35,048 bases of DNA from Planctomycetia bacterium (GTDB taxonomy: Bacteria > Planctomycetota > UBA8108 > SXIK01). Made by a program: the position numbers and the translations under genes. Below the pieces are notes generated by a model. It saw only the letters and a list, made by a program, of their open reading frames with translations. It was not told the DNA's origin and did no database searches. Positions 472-14,416 of the stretch are shown here, piece after piece. Every line of letters begins with the position of its first letter. The first letter of the stretch is position 1. The stretch lies in the NCBI GenBank assembly GCA_005772855.1, contig SXIK01000128.1, forward strand, positions 1 to 35,048, read 5' to 3'.

Positions 472-2358
472 TTACTTCCCCGTGACCTCGTGAAGATGAG
501 CCACGAGCGCCGTGAAAGCCTCCACGGCCTCGGTCTCGATCACAAACGGCGGCAATCCAACGGTCTCGACTCGTCCCAGCGTGTCGCCATGGGGGCCCAC
601 CGGACCTCCCAGAATGAGCTTCCGGAAGGATACGGGGTCGTCGCCCTCGACTCGCTCAAGAATCAGCGCACGCTTCGGGGCTTGAAGCTCGAGGTCATTC
701 CCGACGAGGTCGATGATTCCTGGCTCGTACCGTTTCACTCGAAAGTTCTCCCGTTGAAGCTGCAACAGAAGTTTGTTCACCAGGGCCGAGTTGAGCTCTT
801 TCCCTTGAGCAACTGGGGTCTTCAAGTCCAACATCCACGGCTCACCTGGCTGCACCTGAGCGAGGGACCAATCGGAGACCCCTTCAACAATCCGCAGCTC
901 TCGGACCCGAGCGGGATCGAGGGTTGACAGGTTCTTCTGGCGAAATGAGTGCGCCCCCGCTTCGAACTTCATTGGCAAGTCTGTGCTCACGAGATACGAC
1001 CCGGGCTCGCCCTCAACTCGAGCGGGATAAAGGTTCTGCCCCCGATGCTCGGGTAGCATCGAGATGTCGCCGAGCCGCAGCTCGAGCGTCCTCTTCCCGC
1101 TTGTTCTGAAGATTAATTTTCGCGTTGGCCTTTCGAGTGCTTGGGTCAGGAACTGCTGGATGGTGAGCGATCGATGCCAGCTGACAGCGGCGTCGATCTC
1201 AACCTTGTCGCCGGAAAACAAGACGCTTCCATCCCTGTCGAGCACCTGCCAGGAGTCAGAGTCACCACGAGCACCCTTTTCCTTGATTCTTTTCAAGGTG
1301 CTGTGAACTGTGAGGGACTCGTAGGAGATCTCTTCGACGTCCTCGAGGCCGAAATCAAATACATGACGGCTTCGAAGCTCCTCGTGGCTTTTCAAGAGCA
1401 TCGTCAGCGGCGCCGCCGAGGCCTTGAAAATAAAAGAGCTGAGGGGATGACGCACAAAGACCTCGGCCTCCTTCCCATCCGCAGAAGTGGCGGCTGTCCC
1501 GCCAATCTCCAGCGCCACTCCAAGACGGTCCTTTCGCTGGATCCGCACCTGCGCCCGGGGCGACTTCAGCCCGCAGGCTTCGAGGTCAGCGTCCGTCGCC
1601 GCATCGCGGTGGAAGGTCCCCACGGTCCAGGAGTTCAACTCCCTGAGCAGCTCTTCCACGAGCTGTCGGTCGGCAGCAGCGTCCAGCGGCTCCTTGAGCC
1701 TCCAGCGGTCTGACAGGCCGTCACGGACAACCACCTTGGCGAACCGTGCCCCGCCCAACACCTCGAGCCGAACCGAGTCCGGTGGTGCGATCCCCAGGAG
1801 AGCCCGTGACCTCAAGTCGGTCAACGAAACGAGCAGGCTTCTTCGAAACTCTTTTCGAATCACAAAGGGCGAAGCTTCAGGCTTCGTCTCTCGGGCGTAA
1901 ACGAGGTCAAGCCTGGAATCTGGATGCTCTGCACCGAGCTCAAGCCCAAAGAACTGGCCGTCGCGCGTCTTGAAGGAGAGCGCCAGGTCCACTCCTTTTT
2001 CAAAGGGGTCGGCGCCCTCCCCGGAGGCGACATCCGCAATTCTGAGGAGTTCGGCAATGTCAAACGCAAGCGTTTGCACCCGGGGATGGAATGCCTCAAA
2101 GTGGATCGGATCAACGATCCACCACTCCGGCGGGCTCCCTTCCTTTCGCAACTGGATGGGGCGAGCATCGATGCCTAGCGCAGCGTCCCTCGCGAAGCCG
2201 GGCCTCTCGAGACGCAACTCGACAATCTCGTTCGGATCAAGGTCCGGATAAAGCCGGCCCCGCTGCGTCCAGACAGGCGAACCCGCCTCAAACACCCAGG
2301 CATGGGCCGTGAGCAAGATCGCAATACCCAACAAGATCCAGTTGCCTCGCGCCGACAT
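472..2358 (-). CDS. DUF4340-domain membrane-anchored protein of a Gld-like ABC system
   Basis: A 628-residue protein with one N-terminal hydrophobic segment (about residues 7-22) followed by a long extracytoplasmic region. The opening after the anchor (leucine-rich, with a DLDPNEIVELRLERPG stretch) and the repeated mixed alpha/beta blocks fit the DUF4340 family. That family is typically encoded directly after GldF/GldG-like ABC genes and its function is unknown. It follows the GldG-like gene by one base. Its ribosome-binding site AGGAGG lies inside the 3' end of that gene, seven bases before the ATG. The order ATPase, permease, GldG-like, DUF4340 is the standard arrangement of these loci. The protein presumably sits in the inner membrane with its domain in the periplasm, as a transporter partner. 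The substrate is unknown. Confidence 0.85.
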   Translation of the reverse strand: MSARGNWILLGIAILLTAHAWVFEAGSPVWTQRGRLYPDLDPNEIVELRLERPGFARDAALGIDARPIQLRKEGSPPEWWIVDPIHFEAFHPRVQTLAFDIAELLRIADVASGEGADPFEKGVDLALSFKTRDGQFFGLELGAEHPDSRLDLVYARETKPEASPFVIRKEFRRSLLVSLTDLRSRALLGIAPPDSVRLEVLGGARFAKVVVRDGLSDRWRLKEPLDAAADRQLVEELLRELNSWTVGTFHRDAATDADLEACGLKSPRAQVRIQRKDRLGVALEIGGTAATSADGKEAEVFVRHPLSSFIFKASAAPLTMLLKSHEELRSRHVFDFGLEDVEEISYESLTVHSTLKRIKEKGARGDSDSWQVLDRDGSVLFSGDKVEIDAAVSWHRSLTIQQFLTQALERPTRKLIFRTSGKRTLELRLGDISMLPEHRGQNLYPARVEGEPGSYLVSTDLPMKFEAGAHSFRQKNLSTLDPARVRELRIVEGVSDWSLAQVQPGEPWMLDLKTPVAQGKELNSALVNKLLLQLQRENFRVKRYEPGIIDLVGNDLELQAPKRALILERVEGDDPVSFRKLILGGPVGPHGDTLGRVETVGLPPFVIETEAVEAFTALVAHLHEVTGK

Positions 2359-2359
2359 A

Positions 2360-3904
2360 TCACGTCCTCCTCACATGGTAGACCAGCACACCAGCGGTCA
2401 AGAAAATCCCCGGCAGGAGGAAAATGGGGACCCAAAAAAGATACCGCTCGATCGAGGGATCCGTCCGCAGCGTGCGCTTCGTCCACTCGGTGCCGCCCTC
2501 GGTACTCCTCACTTCATCACCGAGAAGCCACCGCAGACAGTTCATCAGGAAGTCGCGGTTGGAGGACCTCAAGAAGTACTGGTCGCCAAGAAAGGTTGCA
2601 GAGCCCGTCACGACAAGCCTCGTGTCGCGGCGCTGAAATTCGGGTGGCGGCCGTTCCGGAATCACTTGGCTGACGGCAAGGACAAGATCAAAATCAGCCG
2701 GTTTCGGAAGCTCCCGTGAGCCCGGCAGGCCCACGAGATAGTAGTCCACGCCTCGATGCGATACGGCGCTCAGGATTGGCGCAGCATCGAACCCCTTGCC
2801 CTTTCCTCCCGGCACGAGAGGACGAGGCAACTCCAGCTGCACCTCGAACCTCGGGACGTTCACGAAGATGCTGGTCGCCGGATGGCTCCTCGAAAATTGC
2901 CTCGCCGCAACAACGGCGTGGCTGGTCTTCGAAAGCGGCGTGTCGATGTAACTTTGCACCTGTCCTTCCAGCACACGCACCCCCCAATCCTCCAGGCAGC
3001 TCTCAATCCCCGTGCGGCGCACTCCCAGGGCCACAAGCAGCTTGCCACCACGCTCAAGGTAAGCATCGATGACGCGAAGCTCCTCGGGTAAGAAGATCTG
3101 ACTCGCTCCGGCGATGACGAGCACGGAACAATCAACTGGGATTTCCCTGAGTCCAGTAATTGAAAGCGGCCGGCCTTCAAGGCCCTGGCTGTCAAGCTCC
3201 CCCAGAAGCACTCGAATTCCACCGACGCCGACCGCCTTCTCGGAGGTGGGGCGAAACTGCGCCTCGCCTTTGTCTTGCGTGAAATAGACGGCTCTTCGGT
3301 CGACCGTGACGAGACGGTTCAAGGCAGAAGTGATCGCCCGTTCTCCACGGAAGGCCTTCACCTCGGGAACGTCCGTCCCCGGATCACGAACGGAGCCGAA
3401 AAAAGCCAGGTCATTGGGCGTCACGGTCTGACGACGCTCCCTGCCCTTACCCGCAAAGAAAATGAAGCGATTCAGCTGGGAGGACTCGAGCTTGTACTCG
3501 GCCCGGATCCGCTCCCATCGATCGGGGTGTTCCAACACATCCACCTCGGCAGCCACCTGAATCAAGGGCTGCGCCGCCAGGTACTCACTCAAGAGAAGGC
3601 GAGCGCGAGTCAGGACATCGTGCTGAGCGAGGTGATCGGGGTTGTCTCTCAGGAGCAATGTGGGAATCACCACCTCCACCGGCTCGGTGATGAGTTTGAG
3701 GCGCTCCAGCGAGTCTCTCGAGAGGCTCAGGAGCTTTTCCTCCGTCAAGTCGATCCGGACGGGGTGCCTGAAGACGATTCCATTGGCCAGGAAGAGACTG
3801 TAGAAGGCAAGGAAGAGCCCCACGAGGAAAGACAATCGCATGCTCCAACGCTTTCTCGTGCTGAAACTGGCCCGAGCAGCAGTTTTCTTCCCGGTCATCT
3901 CCAT
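2360..3904 (-). CDS. GldG-like ABC transporter auxiliary protein
   Basis: A 514-residue protein with a basic N-terminus, a membrane segment at about residues 23-42, a large extracytoplasmic domain and a second membrane segment at the extreme C-terminus (about 488-508, ending HVRRT). Two flanking helices around a periplasmic domain are the hallmark of the GldG / ABC_transp_aux family. After the first helix comes RIDLTEEKLLSLS, the typical start of that domain. It overlaps the upstream permease gene by 10 bases, so translation is coupled. In Bacteroidota GldAFG supports gliding, but homologues in non-gliding phyla are of unknown function, and the gliding label should not be carried over. The ATG at 3904 could be replaced by the internal ATG two codons later. 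Confidence 0.87.
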   Translation of the reverse strand: MEMTGKKTAARASFSTRKRWSMRLSFLVGLFLAFYSLFLANGIVFRHPVRIDLTEEKLLSLSRDSLERLKLITEPVEVVIPTLLLRDNPDHLAQHDVLTRARLLLSEYLAAQPLIQVAAEVDVLEHPDRWERIRAEYKLESSQLNRFIFFAGKGRERRQTVTPNDLAFFGSVRDPGTDVPEVKAFRGERAITSALNRLVTVDRRAVYFTQDKGEAQFRPTSEKAVGVGGIRVLLGELDSQGLEGRPLSITGLREIPVDCSVLVIAGASQIFLPEELRVIDAYLERGGKLLVALGVRRTGIESCLEDWGVRVLEGQVQSYIDTPLSKTSHAVVAARQFSRSHPATSIFVNVPRFEVQLELPRPLVPGGKGKGFDAAPILSAVSHRGVDYYLVGLPGSRELPKPADFDLVLAVSQVIPERPPPEFQRRDTRLVVTGSATFLGDQYFLRSSNRDFLMNCLRWLLGDEVRSTEGGTEWTKRTLRTDPSIERYLFWVPIFLLPGIFLTAGVLVYHVRRT

Positions 3905-4644
3905 TTCCGAGCCTCCACGGTACGAACCGCAAGAAAGAGGAAAAAGACGGCCAGACTGGCGTACAGAAAGAGATACCTGAGGTCGACGATCCCGCGCGAG
4001 TACTCACCCTCGAAGTGCGACGTGAAGCTCAAAAAGCGGATCCAGCGGCGGGCCTCCAGCGCGTCCTCTGGCACGAGCGACTGTCCCATTTGGAGGAAAA
4101 ACAGGAGGAGGTTCCCGCTGAGGGCGAGGACAGCGGACACAAGCTGGTTGCGGGTCGAGGCCGAGGCAAGGAGGCCCATGGCGTTGGTGAGTAAACCAAG
4201 GAAGAACAGCCCCACGTAGAGGGCCCAGATCGGCCCCCAGTCAGGATCACCGAGGACTTCGAGCATGACCAGGAGCGGCAGCAGGGAGGCCCAGACAATC
4301 GTGTAAAAGGCCTGGGCGGCGACAAACTTCCCAAGCACGACCTGGAACTCGGTCACGGGGGCCGTCATGAGAAGCTCCAGACTCCCCGACCGTTTCTCCT
4401 CGGCGAACAAACGCATGGTCAGGATGGGGGAGAGCGGCAGAATCCAGAAGATTGAAAATTCGAAGAGAGACTCCACCACCATCGTAATCTGGCGAGGTTG
4501 CCCCGTGAGGACGCTGGAGAAAGCATAAAACATGCTCCCGTTGATCACGAGGAAGAGAAAAATGACGATCCAGGCAATGGGAGAGAAGAAGTACGCTCCC
4601 ATCTCCCGCAGGAATATCGCCCACGCCTTCAGGAGGCCGCTCAT
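3895..4644 (-). CDS. ABC-2 type transporter permease, GldF-like
   Basis: A 249-residue integral membrane protein with about six hydrophobic helices. The conserved cytoplasmic stretch EEKRSGSLELLMTAPV, near residues 86-101, is the signature region of the GldF/NatB/NosY-type ABC-2 permeases. It would form the channel driven by the adjacent ATPase. The ATG overlaps the ATPase stop by four bases (ATGA), and its own 3' end overlaps the GldG-like gene by ten, so the three are one translational unit. Its length is normal for GldF. The direction and substrate of transport cannot be read from the sequence. Confidence 0.9.
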   Translation of the reverse strand: MSGLLKAWAIFLREMGAYFFSPIAWIVIFLFLVINGSMFYAFSSVLTGQPRQITMVVESLFEFSIFWILPLSPILTMRLFAEEKRSGSLELLMTAPVTEFQVVLGKFVAAQAFYTIVWASLLPLLVMLEVLGDPDWGPIWALYVGLFFLGLLTNAMGLLASASTRNQLVSAVLALSGNLLLFFLQMGQSLVPEDALEARRWIRFLSFTSHFEGEYSRGIVDLRYLFLYASLAVFFLFLAVRTVEARKWR

Positions 4645-5612
4645 GTCCTTTCGCCTCCGACGATCTCCACGAAGACGTCTTCGAGCGTTATGGCCTCGCG
4701 TCGCAACTCCCGCAGGGTCCAGCCACCCCGGGCGACCGCGCGGTAGACAGCCTCGCGCAAGTCGTCAGTCTGGGCCGCCTCCAGCGTAAAGCGGTGGTAG
4801 CCAAAGCGCGTGGAAGCGTCGACCGGCTCCACCCCCGGCGAAAGGGGAGAGGAGAGGACGCGCGCGACTCCCTCGATTTTCCCCAGGGCGCACACGATCT
4901 CGGAGAGCGGGCCACTGATCTCCGCCACGGTCCGCTCCGCCGCCCCATACTTCCGCCTGAGGCTCTGCGCCGTGTCACGCGCCACGATCCGTCCCTTGTG
5001 GATAATCACGACATGGGAGCAGACGATCTCGACCTCGCTCAGGATATGCGTGGAGAGGATGACCGTCCGGTCGCGCCCGACCTCCTTCAGAAGCTGTCGG
5101 AACTGCCGGACCTGTTCGGGATCCAACCCCACGGTAGGCTCGTCGAGGACCAGCACCCTCGGCTTTGCAAGCAGCGCGTCGGCCAGCCCAACTCGCTGCC
5201 GATAGCCCCGAGATAGAGTCCCGATGACCCGGTTCGCAACGTCCTCGATATGGGTGTCCGCGAGCGCCTGTGCCACTGCCCCTCGACGATCAGCGCGGCT
5301 CACACCCTTCAGCCTGGAGCGAAACCGCAAGTACTCCGAAACGCGCATCTCGGGGTAGATCGGAACTCCCTCCGGCAAGTACCCCAGGATCTGGCGCACG
5401 CGAAGGGACTCGGAGCAAACATCGTGCCCGCCAACGCGCACGCTGCCTGAATCCCCGGGGAGGAAGCCGGTCAGGATGCGCATTGTCGTCGACTTCCCGG
5501 CCCCATTGGGCCCGAGGAATCCCAGAATCTGCCCGTCTTCGGCACGGAAGCTCACCTTGTCGAGCGCCCGCACCGGACCAAAGCTCTTCGAGAGCTCCAA
5601 TACTTCGATCAC
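4641..5612 (-). CDS. ABC transporter ATP-binding protein, GldA-like
   Basis: A 323-residue ATPase. The Walker A motif GPNGAGKST is at residues 34-42, the signature is LSRGYRQRVGLADAL, Walker B is VLVLDEPTVGLDP, and the H-loop His is in LSTHIL. A C-terminal extension of about 80 residues follows the nucleotide-binding domain, as in the CcmA/NatA/GldA group. The start is GTG at 5612, preceded by a strong GGAGGAG ribosome-binding site (5623-5629) at ten bases. The first codons (IEVLELSKSFG) match the usual start of the fold. It is the first gene of the five-gene operon and lies 95 bp downstream of rpoN on the same strand. It powers the permease next to it. Confidence 0.93.
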   Translation of the reverse strand: MIEVLELSKSFGPVRALDKVSFRAEDGQILGFLGPNGAGKSTTMRILTGFLPGDSGSVRVGGHDVCSESLRVRQILGYLPEGVPIYPEMRVSEYLRFRSRLKGVSRADRRGAVAQALADTHIEDVANRVIGTLSRGYRQRVGLADALLAKPRVLVLDEPTVGLDPEQVRQFRQLLKEVGRDRTVILSTHILSEVEIVCSHVVIIHKGRIVARDTAQSLRRKYGAAERTVAEISGPLSEIVCALGKIEGVARVLSSPLSPGVEPVDASTRFGYHRFTLEAAQTDDLREAVYRAVARGGWTLRELRREAITLEDVFVEIVGGERT

Positions 5613-5707: not shown

Positions 5708-7189
5708 TCAATAACTGCGCCGCTCCCTCGAGGAGGCAATCGATTCGGCCTCGCGGTACTTCGTGACGGTCCGACGTGAGAGCTTGATATTCGACTCGGC
5801 AAGCCTCTTCACGATGTCGATGTCGCTCAAAGGGTTGGCCTTGTCCTCGTTGGCGACGAGCTCCTTGATCCGCTGGATCACACTGCCACGGGCCTCAGTG
5901 GTTCCGTCCGACTTGGAGGCGCCTCCCGTGAAGAAGGTCTTCATGGAGAGGATCCCCCTGGAAGTCTGCATGTACTTGCCGCTGATCGCCCGGCTAATCG
6001 TCGAGACATGAACCCCAACCCGTTCAGCAACTTCGACCATCTTGAGCGGCTTCAGGTGGGAGACTCCGTGATCGAGGAAGTCTTTTTGAATATCGACCAG
6101 CTCCTGCGCAATCCGGCGCAGAGTCGCCTGACGCTGGCGCACAGCCGCAAGGAGCCACTCCGCGCTGTCGAGCTTCTTCTTGAGATACTGCTTTAGCTCG
6201 GGGTTCTTTCTTGAAGTCTTGTAGAGGTCTCGATAGTGCGGTGCGATCTGCAGGCGCGGGAGGTAATCGAAGTCCACCCGGACTTCATAATGCCCCTCGA
6301 CCTCGTCCACAATCACATCCGGCTTGACGAAGCTCGCTGCCTCGCCGCCGAAGAGTTTCCCGGGGAGCGGATTCAAGCTCACAATCGTCTCGACCGCCTC
6401 CTTGACCTCCTCCATCGAGATTCCCAGCGCTTTGGCGATCTTCGGAAGGCGGTTGTGCCCTAGCTCTTCGAGGTGGTCCCGGATAATGCTCTCCTCGACG
6501 GGATACTGCTGCTTGTCGCGATGGAGTTGAAGGAGGAGGCACTCCTTGAGGTCGCGCCCGCCCACGCCCGGGGGGTCCAGAGATTGCACAAGACGCAAGG
6601 CCTTTCCCAGGGCAACGAGTGACGGCTTGGACTCGAGCGACGATTGGATCTCCTCGAGCGAGTACATCAGGTACCCACGATTGTCGATGTTGTAGACAAT
6701 ATCGACGCAAAGATCGGTGATTTGCGATAGCTCCTCGTCGGTGACCTTCCCGAGGATGTGCTCGAATTCGGAGCGGTCGAGCAGGTGCAACTCCTCTTCC
6801 AGATGCTCCTGAAGGCTCGTCGGGCGCCCTTCAGTGTTGCTCAAGGCCTCGAGTTTCTCATCCTTGTCGCCAGCGTAGCTCGAAACACTTCGGGAGGTCG
6901 CGTACTCTTCGCGGCTATAGTCCTGCCAGTCCTCGAAGTGCTTCTCAAAGGACTCCGCAGGTTCCTGGACTGGCTCGGACGCGACTGGCGCCTCGGAACC
7001 CGGCAACTCCTCGGACTTCGTCTTCTCGGTGAGCTCGAGAGTCTCGTTGTTCTCGAGTTCGGTGTCGATCCGCTCTTCAAGATCGAGCGAATTCAGACAC
7101 AGAATCTCCATGGACATGTACATCTGGGGAGATAAGGTCTGAATTTGCCGGATCGCCTGGTGCTGGGAGAACCCCAGTTCCATTCGCAT
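5708..7189 (-). CDS. rpoN: RNA polymerase sigma-54 factor RpoN
   Basis: A 493-residue sigma-54 that binds core RNA polymerase and directs it to -24/-12 promoters, where an AAA+ activator must open the complex. Region I is at the N-terminus (MRMELGFSQHQA, then a QIQTLSPQM stretch). An acidic, variable region II follows (about 50-115). The core-binding domain contains SLDPPGVGGRDLKECLLLQL, and a helix-turn-helix domain lies at about 379-412. The RpoN box reads SRRTVTKYRE (about 471-480), with Ser replacing the usual first Ala. The length is normal. The AAAGGG upstream of the ATG is a plausible ribosome-binding site. It lies between lnt and the ABC operon, and no activator gene is visible in the window. 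Confidence 0.96.
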   Translation of the reverse strand: MRMELGFSQHQAIRQIQTLSPQMYMSMEILCLNSLDLEERIDTELENNETLELTEKTKSEELPGSEAPVASEPVQEPAESFEKHFEDWQDYSREEYATSRSVSSYAGDKDEKLEALSNTEGRPTSLQEHLEEELHLLDRSEFEHILGKVTDEELSQITDLCVDIVYNIDNRGYLMYSLEEIQSSLESKPSLVALGKALRLVQSLDPPGVGGRDLKECLLLQLHRDKQQYPVEESIIRDHLEELGHNRLPKIAKALGISMEEVKEAVETIVSLNPLPGKLFGGEAASFVKPDVIVDEVEGHYEVRVDFDYLPRLQIAPHYRDLYKTSRKNPELKQYLKKKLDSAEWLLAAVRQRQATLRRIAQELVDIQKDFLDHGVSHLKPLKMVEVAERVGVHVSTISRAISGKYMQTSRGILSMKTFFTGGASKSDGTTEARGSVIQRIKELVANEDKANPLSDIDIVKRLAESNIKLSRRTVTKYREAESIASSRERRSY

Positions 7190-7364: not shown

Positions 7365-8966
7365 TTACAATGCAATTTTCTTACCCTGACGGCCCGCCAA
7401 ATCAGCCTTCGCAAGATTCGCGCGTCGGAGGCGGCGCACGATCCACTCCAGGCCGACGAGAACCAGTATCGCAAGTGGCAGGTGGCGCCCCCAGGACCTG
7501 TAGACTGTCGGCAGACTGCGCGGCCTGAGCTCGCTCCAGACTCCTTCTGGCGCAAAGACCTTCTTGCCCCGTTCGAACCGTCCCGTCGCGTGGATCACTC
7601 CGGACGGTCCCATGTTCGCGCACCGCACGAGCGGTGTTCGGTTCTCCACTACCCGAAGGATCAAGACCGAAACATGCTGTGAGATGTGGGCTGTTTGACC
7701 GTACCAGACGTCCTCGGTAATGTTGACAAGGAAATCAGCTCCCCTGGATGACTCGCAGATGTAACCTGGAAGTACGGCCTCGTAACAGATGAGGTTCTTG
7801 AAAGTGGCGTTCCCCAGGCGCATCGGCGGATTGCCTTCGCCGGGCCATAGGGTCCCGATGTTTTGGAATATCTCTCTTCGCCAGCTCTCTGGCAGCCAGC
7901 CGATGCACGGGACATGCTCACCAAAAAGAATCCTCCGATTCTTCTCGTAGAAAAACGGTTGCTTGCCAGGCTCCAGAAAAAATGCGACATTCGAAAACTC
8001 AGGTAGCCGCCCCCGCGCATACCCGGCGCTACCCGCCACCAGGGGCGCGGTGATACGTCGGATGAGTCGCTCCGGTGGCACGTGGCCCTTGTGAAAGAGC
8101 CACGGCGATTCCCGCGGAGTCAGGTTGAAGGGGTACTGGTCGGCACCCTCGGGCCAGACGATCAGGTCCGGCCCTCCAGAGCTCTCAAGGAGCTTCTCGG
8201 TCTCGGAAATGTAGTGCTCAAGGCCCCTGTCACTGCGTTGCGCGGGATCGAGGGCTCCCTGGACGAGGAGCACGCGCAGTGAAGGCGCTTCGCCGGTCAC
8301 GCCAGTGACGTACTCGAGCCGGGAACGGCCATAGAGAAGAGCAGCCGCCAGGAGCACGACCGACACGACGGCCAACCCATACGGCAGGCCGCGCTTCCCT
8401 CGGAGCCAGCCAACCACGGTGAAAACGAGCGCGTTCCAGAGGAAGACCAGCGCCGTTAGCCCACTGGCCCCCAGGAGATCGGCGCACTGGACGATCCATT
8501 CCCGACCATGGAGCGCCCCTCCCAGGTGCCACGGGAAAAGCCGCGGAAAGAGTCCTTCGATCGAGACCCAGCACAGAAGCGCCCTACTGAGGCTCGACGA
8601 GCGGCCCGATGCGCCCAGGAGGCCGCCCAGAAGTGCCCAGGGGATTGAGGCGTAGAGGACCCAGAGAGAAAAAATGAGCGCAGCAACAGGTGAAGGCAAC
8701 CCCGTGAAGCGGCGGATCGCGAGCAATATCCAGCAGAATCCTGAGGACTCGAGTACAAGCCCGGTGCACCAGCCGAGGAGAAGACCCCGACGCAAGCCGG
8801 TCCCCACGCTGGATAAGAAGAGTGGCACCAGTCCGACCCAGACGAGCCCATCGAGTCCCATCTCGGAACCGTACTGCGGAAACGCCAGCAAGAGGAGCAA
8901 CCCCGAGAGAAGAGCCCCGAGGACCTGGAGTATGGATTGGCGCTGGCCGGAGGTCAAAGTGGGCAA
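7365..8966 (-). CDS. lnt: Apolipoprotein N-acyltransferase Lnt
   Basis: A 533-residue inner-membrane enzyme that adds the third acyl chain to the N-terminal Cys of lipoproteins, the last step of lipoprotein maturation in Gram-negative bacteria. About six N-terminal membrane helices are followed by a periplasmic nitrilase-like domain and a C-terminal helix. The catalytic triad is visible: E273 (VWPEGADQ), K342 (YEKNRRILFGE) and C394 (NLICYEA). The positions match E. coli E267/K335/C387 almost exactly. The only in-frame initiation codon after the upstream stop is TTG at 8966, with no clear ribosome-binding site. It diverges from the giant repeat protein, with about 100 bp between the starts. 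Confidence 0.95.
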   Translation of the reverse strand: MPTLTSGQRQSILQVLGALLSGLLLLLAFPQYGSEMGLDGLVWVGLVPLFLSSVGTGLRRGLLLGWCTGLVLESSGFCWILLAIRRFTGLPSPVAALIFSLWVLYASIPWALLGGLLGASGRSSSLSRALLCWVSIEGLFPRLFPWHLGGALHGREWIVQCADLLGASGLTALVFLWNALVFTVVGWLRGKRGLPYGLAVVSVVLLAAALLYGRSRLEYVTGVTGEAPSLRVLLVQGALDPAQRSDRGLEHYISETEKLLESSGGPDLIVWPEGADQYPFNLTPRESPWLFHKGHVPPERLIRRITAPLVAGSAGYARGRLPEFSNVAFFLEPGKQPFFYEKNRRILFGEHVPCIGWLPESWRREIFQNIGTLWPGEGNPPMRLGNATFKNLICYEAVLPGYICESSRGADFLVNITEDVWYGQTAHISQHVSVLILRVVENRTPLVRCANMGPSGVIHATGRFERGKKVFAPEGVWSELRPRSLPTVYRSWGRHLPLAILVLVGLEWIVRRLRRANLAKADLAGRQGKKIAL

Positions 8967-9067: not shown

Positions 9068-12000
9068 ATGTCTTGCCCTGCTCGGTCGACTTGCGCGTCG
9101 TTTGCGCTCCTGGCGGCCCTCCTCTCCCACCCAGCCTTTGGCCAGGAACCGGCAGCTCCCGCGGAAATCCCACCGTCTGTGCCACGGGACGATGCCTACC
9201 GCCCATTGGGCCCCGAGTTGTTTCCACTGTATCAACATTACCTCCAGACCGCCGACCAGACAGAGGTCCGAAATGTCCTCTATCTCTACGCCTCGAGCGA
9301 CAACCCCAACGGCACCTGGTCGAGGCTCCTGGTCCCTCTTTTCTTGCGTGCTGCAGCCAAGGAGCCCCGGGAAAGTCGGCTTTACCTCTTCCCGCTGCTC
9401 TTTTTTCACAAGTCGAGCGAACTGGAGTCCTACAACTTTTCCCTGCCCCTCTTCTACGACTACCGGACTCCCGACGAGTCCTTCCAGTTGCTATTGCCCG
9501 CATGGCTCCGCACCAAGTCCGACATGATCACACGGAATCATGTACTCTTTCCGCTCTACCGACACACTCAGGACGACGGCACAGCCGAGACACCCGTCAC
9601 AAGCAGTCGCGCGGGCCTCTGGAAGATCCTGGATGTGTGGGAGTCCCGCAGCGAGCCCGGAGTCACTGACTACCGCGCGCTCAACCTGTTGAATTGGCGT
9701 GAGGAGACGAAGAGCGGGCTCGCGCTACTTTTCTCCTACTCCTGGATACAAGGCGAAGACTCAAGCGACGGACAGACCTATCTCTTTCCTTTCTACTGGC
9801 ACGGGCGCACGGGGAGCACCGAATACCGTTGGATTGTTCCCTTCTACGGCTATTCCCGCAGCCCCGGAGAGTCGGATCACTTTCTCCTTCCTCTCCTCTC
9901 GCGGTTCGGCGGCGATTCGCAAAACGAGTCTCGCCTCGACTTGCTCTTCCCGCTGTTTCACTACGCCGCTGGGCCCAAGGACTTCTCCGTCGCCTCCTTC
10001 CCACTTTTTGGCTACTCGAGCTCCCAGAGCGAATCCTCCTGGAACGTGCTCTTCTGGCCGTACCGGACGTCACACATATTCGCGACAGGAAAGCGCACTC
10101 ACTCCTTTTTTTTCCCCCTTTCCAACTTCGACGTGGAGCCAGATGAATCCGCGGGCTCGCGGTGGTTCTTCCCCTACATCGAGACCTTCAACGAGAAGCG
10201 ACTCTGGCGCTTCGGAGTGCCGCTCTACTACGAATATCAAACGCTCGCCGGCGGGTCGACGGATTGGTTTTTCCGCACCGGCTTGCCGCTTTTTTGGTCG
10301 TGGGGCTATCCCGACGACTACTTCTCGATGGGATTCCCACTTTACTGGGCCTCTCGCAATGGCCCCCGGGGCTGGCAGCTCTTTTTGCCCCTTTTCCTGA
10401 GCACGTACTCGGCCAGCTCCCTTGGAGTGCACGTCTTCCCGCTCGTCAGCTACCGCTCGCTCCCCTCGCGAAAGCAGCTCTTCATCCTGGGCCCCACGTA
10501 CTTCCACGAGAGCTTCCATGGACTGGAGGGCGAGCCGACAGGCTCGGGCAACCACGTACTTTGGCCCTTCTTCGGAGTCGAGAACCGCAAAGACGGATAC
10601 CTCTACCGCTTCCTTCCTTTCTTCTGGACCTCCCGGGACGGGGACGCCACGGACCTCCTGGCAACCCCATTTTATTATCAATCCAGTGGACCGGACGGCA
10701 CCCATCGCTACTTCATGCCATTCTATGGCCGCTATCGGACGTCGAAGCTGACGCGAGACTATTACGCCGCCGCCTCCTACATCCGGACCACCGAGAAGAC
10801 CGAGTCGGGCACACTGGCGAGGGAGCGTGACGATATCCTCTGGTCTCTGCTAAGCTTCGAGCAAGAGCACACGGTCGGCGCAAGCCACCAGCACATCCTG
10901 CCACTCGGCTACTGGAACACGCGGACCCAGGCGGAGGACTACACGGTCGCCGGCCCACTCTACTACGCCCACCGTATTGTGGACGGCGACGAGGAGCACT
11001 ACCTGAACCTTGTCCTTGGCAATCTCTTCTTTTCCAAGCTCATCGAGGGCACTCCCCCCGAGGCGCCGCAACCCATACTCGAGACTTCCACGAGCCCAGC
11101 ACCCACGGCAACGCCCACGGGTACGGAGGCGGAAGCGATTCCACCGTCCGTGGAAGGTTCCACGGACTTGGCCGTGAGGCCTGATCCTCGAGCGATCCAG
11201 GAAAAAGTGAGGCTCTGGAGCGACCAGGGGGTCCTGTGGCCGCTCACACGGTGGTACAAGGACGCCTCAGGAGGGGAAGGCACCTGGGCAATGCCTCTTT
11301 TCTGGAGCCTGAAGGACAGCCTGTCGAGTCACTTCGCACTCTTCCCGCTCATCTTCTCCCAGAAGGAGGAGACGCCGTATAACTTGAACTACTTCCGCTA
11401 CTTCTTCCTCTTCGACCAGGAGCAATGGCGCGGTGGGCACCGATTCACGGTGGGCCAACTCCTCTTCGACTGGCTGGCCGAGGAGACAACTGAAACCCAT
11501 CGCTGGCGCTTTCTCTATCCGGTTCTCGAGCACGAGTGGAGCCGTGATGGATACTCCTTCCAGTTCACGCCTCTGTTCAACCTCTCGAGAAAGGAAGGGA
11601 AGACAGCTCACTGGCTCTTTCCATTTTTCTGGCTCGGCGGCTCCGAACGAAAACTTGCCACGGGAGAGACCCGGTTCGATTCACACCACTTTTTCCTCTT
11701 CCCACTCTATGGCATCTACGAGCGGCCCGCTCACACGGACCACTACGTGCTCTTCCCGTTGCTGCACTTCCAGACCTCAAATGAGGCGTTCCGATTTGAG
11801 CTCTGGCCCTCCTTTTTCTACCGGGACGAGCCCACCCTCTTCGCTGCTCGCATCTGGCCGCTCCACGCCGAGGAGAAGGGGGTGACGGCCGGAGACTTCT
11901 GGGTCTCACGCTACCTCTTTCCTTCGAAACACTTCGTGAAGGGCGAGGATTCCGAATACCGGCTTGATCCGTTCCTCTTTCGAACCTCGTCGGGCCCCAA

Positions 12001-12493
12001 CAAGTTCGGTATGGGCGGCCCCTTCGAGCTATTTGCCTACGACCGGGAAGGCTCCGACTCCTCCTTCCGGGCGATCCCGCTTGTCTTCGGCTACTCGAAG
12101 GAAGAGCGTGGCGCGGTGGGCGTGATACCAATCTATTTCGGAAAGGACTTTGGTAAAGACCCGATCGATTACTTCCTGCCCTGGCGGGTTCTCTTCCTCT
12201 CCCATCACCTGAAGGGCGCAAACGGCGAACGTCACACGGGTGTCCTGTGGAAGCTCTTCGAGCGGACAAGCAACTCCAACAGGCCAGAGTTCGGAGAGCT
12301 GGGTCTTCTTTACCGCTTCTTCTTCGCACGACATACGGAGACGTCACAACAGCTCCAGGTGAACCCGCTGTTCAGCTACTTCCACGACGAGACCCAGGAC
12401 GAATCACGGTGGAGCTTCCTCTTCTCGCTCTACAGTCAGCACTCGGTGAAGGGACAAAAAGAGCACACGCTCTTTTACTTCATTAACTTTTAG
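9068..12493 (+). CDS. Secreted ~40-unit, 17-residue-repeat protein, possible giant outer-membrane beta-structure
   Basis: A 1141-residue protein of unknown family. A signal peptide is visible (hydrophobic core about 11-20, likely cleavage after AFG at 25). The rest is almost wholly a repeat of [aromatic/aliphatic]2-Pro-[LF]-[FYL], followed by polar, often charged residues. Counting the central Pro gives positions 241, 258, 275, 295, 312, 331, 350, 369, then 407, 424, 441, 458 and 500, 517, 534, 551, so the commonest step is 17. The same spacing recurs at 818-852, 897-931 and 1004-1038. A Pro/Thr/Glu-rich linker (about 660-715) splits it into two repeat arrays. The last residue is Phe (LFYFINF), as in many outer-membrane barrels. 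Beta structure and surface location are inferences. The ATG at 9068 is the first start after an in-frame TAA at 9059, and no ribosome-binding site is evident. The 3' end overlaps murJ by 11 bases. Confidence 0.9.
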   Translation: MSCPARSTCASFALLAALLSHPAFGQEPAAPAEIPPSVPRDDAYRPLGPELFPLYQHYLQTADQTEVRNVLYLYASSDNPNGTWSRLLVPLFLRAAAKEPRESRLYLFPLLFFHKSSELESYNFSLPLFYDYRTPDESFQLLLPAWLRTKSDMITRNHVLFPLYRHTQDDGTAETPVTSSRAGLWKILDVWESRSEPGVTDYRALNLLNWREETKSGLALLFSYSWIQGEDSSDGQTYLFPFYWHGRTGSTEYRWIVPFYGYSRSPGESDHFLLPLLSRFGGDSQNESRLDLLFPLFHYAAGPKDFSVASFPLFGYSSSQSESSWNVLFWPYRTSHIFATGKRTHSFFFPLSNFDVEPDESAGSRWFFPYIETFNEKRLWRFGVPLYYEYQTLAGGSTDWFFRTGLPLFWSWGYPDDYFSMGFPLYWASRNGPRGWQLFLPLFLSTYSASSLGVHVFPLVSYRSLPSRKQLFILGPTYFHESFHGLEGEPTGSGNHVLWPFFGVENRKDGYLYRFLPFFWTSRDGDATDLLATPFYYQSSGPDGTHRYFMPFYGRYRTSKLTRDYYAAASYIRTTEKTESGTLARERDDILWSLLSFEQEHTVGASHQHILPLGYWNTRTQAEDYTVAGPLYYAHRIVDGDEEHYLNLVLGNLFFSKLIEGTPPEAPQPILETSTSPAPTATPTGTEAEAIPPSVEGSTDLAVRPDPRAIQEKVRLWSDQGVLWPLTRWYKDASGGEGTWAMPLFWSLKDSLSSHFALFPLIFSQKEETPYNLNYFRYFFLFDQEQWRGGHRFTVGQLLFDWLAEETTETHRWRFLYPVLEHEWSRDGYSFQFTPLFNLSRKEGKTAHWLFPFFWLGGSERKLATGETRFDSHHFFLFPLYGIYERPAHTDHYVLFPLLHFQTSNEAFRFELWPSFFYRDEPTLFAARIWPLHAEEKGVTAGDFWVSRYLFPSKHFVKGEDSEYRLDPFLFRTSSGPNKFGMGGPFELFAYDREGSDSSFRAIPLVFGYSKEERGAVGVIPIYFGKDFGKDPIDYFLPWRVLFLSHHLKGANGERHTGVLWKLFERTSNSNRPEFGELGLLYRFFFARHTETSQQLQVNPLFSYFHDETQDESRWSFLFSLYSQHSVKGQKEHTLFYFINF

Positions 12494-14144
12494 AGCCCGC
12501 TCCGGGGCGTTGTCGCGCAAGTCCCCTCGTCAGCATCCCGAGTTCCCCCATCCTCAGAACCCACGCCAGCACAAAAAATACCACCACGCCGGCTGCGACC
12601 ACAGTACTTATCGACCCGGCAAGTGACAGCTTGGAGGTCACTGCCGGAGTCCAGACGAAACCAAGAATCCACGCACAGGCAAGGCCCATCCCGCCGGCAG
12701 CGACGAGCGTCTTCCACATTGTGCTCACGACGCCTGGGAGTCGAAGCCCCCGCATCCGGCGGAAGAGAGCGACGACGAGGCTTGCTGTCTGCAGCAGAGC
12801 AGCGATCGTGGATGCGAGCGCAATTCCAGCGTGCCCCATCCTCACGGAAAGCCCGTAGGCCAGGCTCAGGTGAAGGATCATGTTCACGGCGCCCTGGAGG
12901 AGAGGGGTCCTCAAGTCTTTTTGCGCGTGAAAGCATGCCACGAGGAGCCGGTTCGAGCCCACAAAGGCCATGCCGAGGACATGCCAGCGAAAGGCCGCCT
13001 GCGTCAGGTCGAGGGATCGCTCGTTGAATTCACCACCCTCGAAGAGGATTGAAAGCACGGGCCGCCGAAGCAGGTAGAGCCCCACCGTACTCGGCACCGT
13101 AATAAAGACGGTGAGTCGCAGCACCTCGCTGACCGTACGCTCGAAGGACGCTCGATCGTTCGCGGCCACATGACGGGCCAGCGCCGTCAGGCTCACGGTC
13201 GAGAGAGCAAAGACGAAGATCCCGAGCACGAACTCCATGAGCCGGTTGGAATAGTTGAGAGAGGAAGCAGCCCCGGCTCCAAGCCGGCTGGCGAGCGATG
13301 TCGACGCTGCGACGTTGAGCTGGTAGATCCCGGCTCCCACGGTGCCCGGAACGAGCAGCCTCATCACCTCGCGCACGCCGGCGTGGTTGAAGGGATTCGT
13401 CAGCCGAAAGCGGATTCCGAGCGACAAGATCTGCGGCAAGAGCACGAGGAGTTGAACAACCCCGGCGACGAGAACAGCTATCGATACAGCCAATGCCTGC
13501 TGTCCCGGCCCCAGCCTCGGGACGAGAATCCAGACCACGGCCGCAAACGCCAGGTTGAACGCGACGGGAGCAAAGGCCGGCATGCCGAAGAACCCCCGGG
13601 CATTCAGAATGCCCTGGATCGCAGCGACGGCGCCAATCAGAAGGAGGTACCAGAACAGAATCCGCGTGAGGTCGGTCGTGAGCTGAATTGTTCCCGGGTC
13701 GTTGAACTCGCCCCAGCCAAAGCCCCACAGCACGATCCAGCCAGCCAGCGCAATGCCACCCAATGTCATGGCAGAGACCACGAGAAGCCAGAACACGAGG
13801 AATTTTTCCGCGAACGTTCGCCCCTCATCTGCGCCCCCGTGAATCAAGTGCTGGGTGTAAACGGGGACGAAGGCGCTGGTGATCGCCCCCTCACCCACGA
13901 GGCGGCGCATGAGATTCGGAAGCAGAAACGCAATCCGAAAAGCGTCGGCAGCCACGGTCGTACCGAGGTAGCTGGCCTGAATCGCCTCCCTCAGCAGCCC
14001 GGTGATCCGACTCAGGAGCGTGATGACGCCCACGACCGACGCGCTTCTCACCATCTTCGCGCTCGCAGCGCCGGGCTCCTGAGGAGCCCTTGAGGGGGGC
14101 GTCGAAACGTGGCTGGACGCGGCAGTGGGGTTAATTTCTGACAT
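12483..14144 (-). CDS. murJ: Lipid II flippase MurJ (MviN)
   Basis: A 553-residue MOP-superfamily membrane protein with about 14 hydrophobic helices. It moves lipid-linked peptidoglycan precursor across the inner membrane. The N-terminal signature SASVVGVITLLSRITGLLRE, then ADAFRIAFLLPN and the GEGAITSAFVPVY motif, are diagnostic. The reading frame stays open upstream to 14384, but the extra residues are not MurJ-like. ATG 14144 (MSEINPTAAS) is chosen, and an alternative start at MVRSAS, 30 codons in, would also give a complete fold. No strong ribosome-binding site precedes either. It converges on the giant repeat protein with an 11-base overlap and diverges from rpsU across about 290 bp. Confidence 0.95.
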   Translation of the reverse strand: MSEINPTAASSHVSTPPSRAPQEPGAASAKMVRSASVVGVITLLSRITGLLREAIQASYLGTTVAADAFRIAFLLPNLMRRLVGEGAITSAFVPVYTQHLIHGGADEGRTFAEKFLVFWLLVVSAMTLGGIALAGWIVLWGFGWGEFNDPGTIQLTTDLTRILFWYLLLIGAVAAIQGILNARGFFGMPAFAPVAFNLAFAAVVWILVPRLGPGQQALAVSIAVLVAGVVQLLVLLPQILSLGIRFRLTNPFNHAGVREVMRLLVPGTVGAGIYQLNVAASTSLASRLGAGAASSLNYSNRLMEFVLGIFVFALSTVSLTALARHVAANDRASFERTVSEVLRLTVFITVPSTVGLYLLRRPVLSILFEGGEFNERSLDLTQAAFRWHVLGMAFVGSNRLLVACFHAQKDLRTPLLQGAVNMILHLSLAYGLSVRMGHAGIALASTIAALLQTASLVVALFRRMRGLRLPGVVSTMWKTLVAAGGMGLACAWILGFVWTPAVTSKLSLAGSISTVVAAGVVVFFVLAWVLRMGELGMLTRGLARQRPGAGSKS

Positions 14145-14313
14145 GACTGGGAGGGAACCTGGCTCCAAATACCCGTTGTGAGGGGAACTGCGCCAGGGAG
14201 CCAGCCTCGCTGCCTCTTCCCGACAATTCACGAACCTGGGCAACTTGGCAGGGATCAGCAGAGTTGCGACGCAACCGGCAGAAGCCTGCGCATTGAACCC
14301 TGGCAAATTCCCA

Positions 14314-14342
14314 TTGCAACTCCTTGGCGCCGTCCATAGACT
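14314..14342 (+). promoter_or_regulatory. Putative sigma-70-type promoter of rpsU
   Basis: TTGCAA at 14314-14319 and TAGACT at 14337-14342 are separated by exactly 17 bases. Each box matches the consensus at four of six positions. It lies about 90 bp before the rpsU start in the rpsU/murJ divergent region. It was found by eye only. Confidence 0.4.
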
Positions 14343-14416
14343 CAGGTCCCTTTCTGGCCAGGCGACCCTTTGGCCGCCGGCCACAAGTGCTCAAACCAAG
14401 TCCACCAACACCCGAC

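Follow-up and report, generated by a model that had tools for sequence, protein, structure and literature searches.

TamB/AsmA-like bridges, which are long, periplasmic, rich in β-structure and hydrophobic on their surface, have a role in lipid transport. In the case of the Mla pathway, a published survey found MlaABC mostly in Proteobacteria, and no MlaD barrel in bacteria of the Planctomycetes-Verrucomicrobia-Chlamydiae (PVC) group (PMC10665443). In PVC bacteria it is thus an open question how MlaEFD connects to the outer membrane when MlaA, MlaC and an MlaD with a barrel are all lacking. At the structural level, the TCP domain of CPAP/SAS-4 is a single-layer meander that stands free, has about 20 strands and often reads PDG at its turns, an open-sheet architecture described as unique in 2013 (PMC3776556). 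The focus here is a stretch of 35,048 nucleotides ("the window") from a Planctomycetia bacterium (contig SXIK01000128.1, positions 1 to 35,048), in which an open reading frame at 9068-12493 of the forward strand encodes a repeat protein of 1141 aa. As judged by profile comparison, this protein is an approximately 2.5-fold longer homologue of short planctomycete lipoproteins. We regard it as roughly an even bet that the whole family of β-hairpin ribbons serves Mla lipid transport, the window protein being a giant, non-lipidated paralogue.

A sequence-only reading of the window had described a secreted protein of about 40 proline-centred units, most often 17 residues long, belonging to no named family. 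The repeat was recovered independently by a 17-column unit profile trained only on distant relatives, with the window protein and its orthologues left out, which finds 40 units with a score of 319, far above the 7.5 +/- 5.8 (maximum 38) obtained in 200 shuffles. In the same protein, proline and hydrophobic residues both show an autocorrelation peak at lag 17, with z of 6.2 and 6.0, respectively, and 14 of the 39 unit spacings are exactly 17. Gaps of 37-42 and 54-58 residues resemble two or three degenerate units each, and therefore the whole protein would contain about 55-60 units. The signal peptide proposed earlier also reads as one by eye (MSCPARSTCASFALLAALLSHPAFG followed by QE), and the two arrays are present together with the Pro/Thr/Glu linker that separates them, whose sequence is poorly conserved in orthologues. 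The modal repeat length is 17 aa. A uniform super-repeat of two or five units across the family was considered and is not general, lag-2 similarity being seen in L061 and lag-5 similarity in L051 and L054. A giant member in another locus (L053:7107-10169, genome G090) carries near-identical tandem duplications of seven units (~123 aa), showing that it has lately grown through the copying of blocks with an odd unit number.

Regarding family membership, no Pfam family matched the window protein, and the NCBIfam model LA_1737_Cterm (NF047486) reached 16.6 bits versus a cut-off of 60, in agreement with the claim that no named family applies. Sequence searches of the PDB found nothing, a weak match to APC4 (E 0.03) being treated as chance; a plasmid search using a relative gave no match, and a literature search on LA_1737 returned no relevant paper. 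It was instead the repeat-unit profile search, together with the relatives that it brought in, that revealed a widespread family. A 3-unit profile uncovered many relatives of 450-560 aa, and the family profile finds members in 156 of 392 Planctomycetota genomes. In a 29-row alignment of short members the unit prolines form invariant columns, and more than 90% of the rows with a residue at the lipobox column have the lipobox Cys. The profile of these short members (A5) matches the window protein with 142.8 bits, against 21.7 bits for the reversed sequence and at most 4.9 for shuffles, and hhalign relates the protein to the short-member family with 99.2% probability (E 1.9e-19). The match includes the C-terminal strand of the family, LFYFINF, in which array 2 terminates and where the fourth A5 domain aligns to profile position 469 of 472. 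A contig scan of genomes yielded only three close orthologues (identities in the table), all from uncultured Planctomycetota; the taxonomic families in which orthologues were found are only that of the window and a single neighbour within the same order. The window's genome has at least three paralogues (contigs 156, 118 and 24), that on contig 24 carrying LSGC. Elsewhere, a single contig (L049, G029:C318) carries two giant members, whose open frames span 1150 and 1691 aa.

The fold of the unit can be followed in L102, a short member (454-aa lipoprotein) that AlphaFold2 (AF2) modelled from the 29 rows with a predicted local distance difference test (pLDDT) of 89.3 and a predicted template modelling score of 0.75. 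The model has 41 strands with a mean of 5.9 aa, two per unit, and none of its 16 conserved prolines falls inside a strand, all of them being located in turns of 2-4 aa. Since proline occupies short turns between strands of about six residues, the unit is a β-hairpin. The sequence-only reading had allowed either a strand or a hairpin for each unit, of which only the hairpin holds in this homologue; the proline at the centre of its units falls in the model at the turn between hairpins, not in mid-strand. The same architecture would apply to the window protein because of its homology to the short set. Foldseek searches of the L102 model covered the PDB and a viral library, with the 50 best matches listed, and returned as high-probability matches three kinds of open single-layer sheet: the CPAP TCP domain (4bxr, 1.00), OspA (0.98-1.00 for several entries) and, from the viral library, MORN repeats (1.00). 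These results leave next to no chance for the earlier notion of a very large outer-membrane β-barrel with one strand per unit. The protein is indeed secreted, β-rich and ends in Phe, but the two strands of ~6 aa per unit in the homologue's model are too short to cross the outer membrane, the prolines lie between strands, and no outer-membrane barrel is found among the 50 best matches listed from either library. Moreover, the terminal Phe, present as claimed in the window protein, is not conserved: C-termini vary across the family, and two orthologues with intact ends close with IPLN and IPISG. A solenoid with one coil per unit is disfavoured by the tight turns at both ends of nearly all strands. 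Most likely, if not proven, the modelled sheet is an open single-layer antiparallel ribbon rather than a rolled-up sheet.

The composition of the window units assigns a distinct character to each side of such a ribbon. Around the proline, positions -2, -1, +1 and +2 are 82-95% FWYLIVM, while positions -8, -7 and +8 are only 2-10% FWYLIVM, residues 6-8 away from the proline being mostly polar. Read from these frequencies, the hairpin ribbon is one with a greasy edge on the proline side and a polar edge on the other. Aromatic residues reach 70% at +2 and 35-50% at -1, +3 and +4, which could suit a rim that binds glycan (cell wall, lipopolysaccharide or exopolysaccharide) in the manner of choline-binding repeats. 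This possibility seems very improbable, given that aliphatic residues are as prominent in the rim as aromatic ones and that the short members share their operon with a phospholipid transporter. Under the favoured lipid-transport reading, the family would consist of unnamed periplasmic or outer-membrane-side proteins built of 17-20 aa β-hairpins, each unit running from a strand through a polar turn (often DG) into a second strand, after which a hydrophobic-Pro-hydrophobic turn leads on to the following hairpin. Together the strands would form one long antiparallel meander, probably an open ribbon, with Leu, Phe, Tyr and Trp lining the proline-side edge and polar residues the opposite one.

The link with Mla comes from the genomic context of the short members. 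In a first set, the next genes were identified by Pfam as MlaE, an ATP-binding cassette (ABC) ATPase and MlaD. In 42 loci fetched by similarity alone, without regard to context (including a test set of 20 that was selected later), MlaE lies downstream on the same strand, at -126 to +347 bp, in 42/42, across many families of the phylum; MlaF and MlaD follow MlaE in all but one locus each, and 33 of the 42 short members have a lipobox-like motif. One such lipoprotein-mlaEFD operon is present on contig 24 of the window's own genome, in which neither MlaA nor MlaC was found; among 22 family-bearing genomes, MlaA was detected in two and MlaC in one. From gene order, the short family stands in the place of the Mla component that is missing on the outer-membrane side, and plausibly fills its role. 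In a planctomycete Mla (MCE) phospholipid transporter, where MlaA and MlaC are usually absent, the short lipoproteins would then be the partner on the outer-membrane side, with a greasy rim that holds or guides lipid or else docks on MlaD. An unlikely but credible alternative is a scaffold or tether between proteins, which connects MlaD or other complexes of the envelope to the outer membrane without ever contacting lipid. Operon linkage fits a scaffold equally well, the closest fold match, the CPAP TCP domain that holds STIL, is a peptide-binding open sheet, and the lipid binding long taken for granted in MORN repeats was questioned by a re-evaluation (PMC7725318). However, a continuous and very hydrophobic rim is beyond the needs of a soluble scaffold, and water is reported to cover both faces of the TCP domain (PMC3776556). 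Contact of the short members with lipid or MlaD, and a role shared by the giant, are what we infer. As a concrete candidate at the head of mlaEFD, the lipoprotein makes the PVC question testable.

Other features of these loci deserve mention. A protein of 1400-1700 aa with PQQ/BamB-like and TPR matches is encoded directly 5' of the lipoprotein-mlaEFD operon in four genomes (L140:7542-12482, L141:1134-6074, L150 and, in the window's genome, L156:7668-11999). The MlaD C-termini of L140 and L149 have similar aromatic tails (AFFSILFAPF and SLFTSVLFNAF, respectively), a possible docking motif. In one planctomycete family (f23), the Mla-linked proteins of L107, L109, L110, L111 and L114 belong to frames of 855-941 aa with ~400 upstream residues in frame; in L107 this upstream part looks FHA-like by eye (SAEHARI...DLGSKNGTFIDG) and is followed by a hydrophobic segment with LLAGC. 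These long frames are possibly fusions of a cytoplasmic sensor, a transmembrane segment and a ribbon, or else read-through from the open frame of the preceding gene.

The giant window protein, whose gene lies at a conserved lnt locus, would be a longer counterpart of the short lipoproteins and do comparable work on lipid or in the envelope. Several observations weigh against the lipid-transport reading. The window gene adjoins lnt and murJ, not mlaEFD, and the protein has no Cys at the likely AFG-QE cleavage site and hence no lipobox, unlike the short members. AF2 gave hairpins for the homologue; for the whole window protein, aligned with four orthologues, it produced no usable model (pLDDT 27). 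Foldseek TM-scores are low, the best being 0.43 by target length for 4bxr, and β-propellers also appear among the matches (E 1e-4, TM ~0.12). The giant might be a structural filament, on the surface or in the periplasm, that has no part in lipid transport and shares nothing but its fold with the Mla-linked lipoproteins. The position of its gene away from mla, the narrow distribution of its orthologues and the existence of an Mla-linked short paralogue in the same genome all agree with a filament, which we nevertheless consider quite unlikely, because lnt, a lipoprotein-maturation locus, is conserved with the giant gene and Pfam shows no adhesin or surface-anchoring domain in the window protein. 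A more ambitious version of the lipid-transport reading, possible yet on balance doubtful, is that the lipid-anchored ribbon replaces MlaA/MlaC as the conduit of MlaEFD and that some lineages, this one among them, evolved giants (of ~115 strands in this case) that could bridge an enlarged periplasm. The contour length would be up to ~55 nm, assuming a fully extended ribbon with 4.8 Å per strand and ~115 strands. An enlarged periplasm is a reported feature of planctomycetes (PMC11958385), so that a long bridge is conceivable. If true, it would represent a new type of trans-envelope lipid bridge.

The features of the window that bear on this gene are collected below. As stated in the sequence-only reading, lnt and murJ flank the repeat gene. 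On one side the flank comprises lnt, rpoN and an ABC transporter, and on the other murJ and trp genes. The block formed by the ABC transporter, rpoN, lnt and the divergent repeat gene is preserved in two orthologue genomes (G001 and G003), in the second of which murJ-trp is also found downstream, with two other genes intervening. This pairing with lnt hints at a related envelope role of the giant protein, although it is suggestive only. The ABC transporter genes that adjoin rpoN (472-5612) include ABC_transp_aux (Gld-type) and are retained alongside lnt and the repeat gene in those two genomes.

Table 1. Positions in the window of the giant repeat gene, its parts and its neighbours
Feature	Coordinates	Strand	Basis and remarks
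Giant hairpin-repeat protein gene	9068..12493	+	1141 aa; open reading frame and profile segmentation; orthologues at 59, 42 and 40% identity
Signal peptide, residues 1-25	9068..9142	+	Likely cut between AFG and QE, without lipobox Cys; read by eye
Repeat array 1, residues ~47-655, about 34 hairpin units	9206..11032	+	Profile segmentation; A5 profile domains 52-346 and 421-634
Pro/Thr/Glu-rich linker, residues ~660-715	11045..11212	+	Sequence and orthologue comparison; variable among orthologues
Repeat array 2, residues ~716-1141, about 23 units	11213..12490	+	Profile segmentation; A5 profile domains
lnt, apolipoprotein N-acyltransferase	7365..8966	-	Pfam LNT_N 1.6e-14; divergent from the repeat gene, 101 bp between
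rpoN (sigma-54), conserved neighbour	5708..7189	-	Identified in the window; kept beside lnt in relatives
murJ, lipid II flippase, convergent neighbour	12483..14384	-	Pfam MurJ 5.7e-100

Among described systems, a distant link in repeat sequence leads to LA_1737 of Leptospira (NF047486), a family of unknown function that 9 of 17 relatives match (best E 1e-7), whereas the window protein stays below the cut-off, as noted above, and none of the 29 Mla-linked members matches. The CPAP/SAS-4 TCP domain shares with the family the consecutive antiparallel strands, the hairpin repeat and the PDG-type turns; it differs in being eukaryotic, cytoplasmic and hydrated on both sides, with only ~20 strands, and no Pfam match connects the two. 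The family would constitute a bacterial, much longer counterpart of this TCP-like open sheet. In comparison with TamB/AsmA-like bridges, to which Pfam gives no match either, the family has shorter strands and repeats a hairpin of 17 aa. MORN repeats are likewise β-hairpin units with two 6-aa strands (PMC7725318), but their unit has 23 residues and a GxG motif, and no Pfam MORN match was obtained. Finally, MlaA/MlaC and the elongated MlaD with a C-terminal barrel of Veillonella would fill the same periplasmic and outer-membrane slot of MlaEFD (PMC10665443); the hairpin family is unrelated to MlaA/MlaC in sequence and co-occurs with MlaEFD where MlaA and MlaC are mostly missing.
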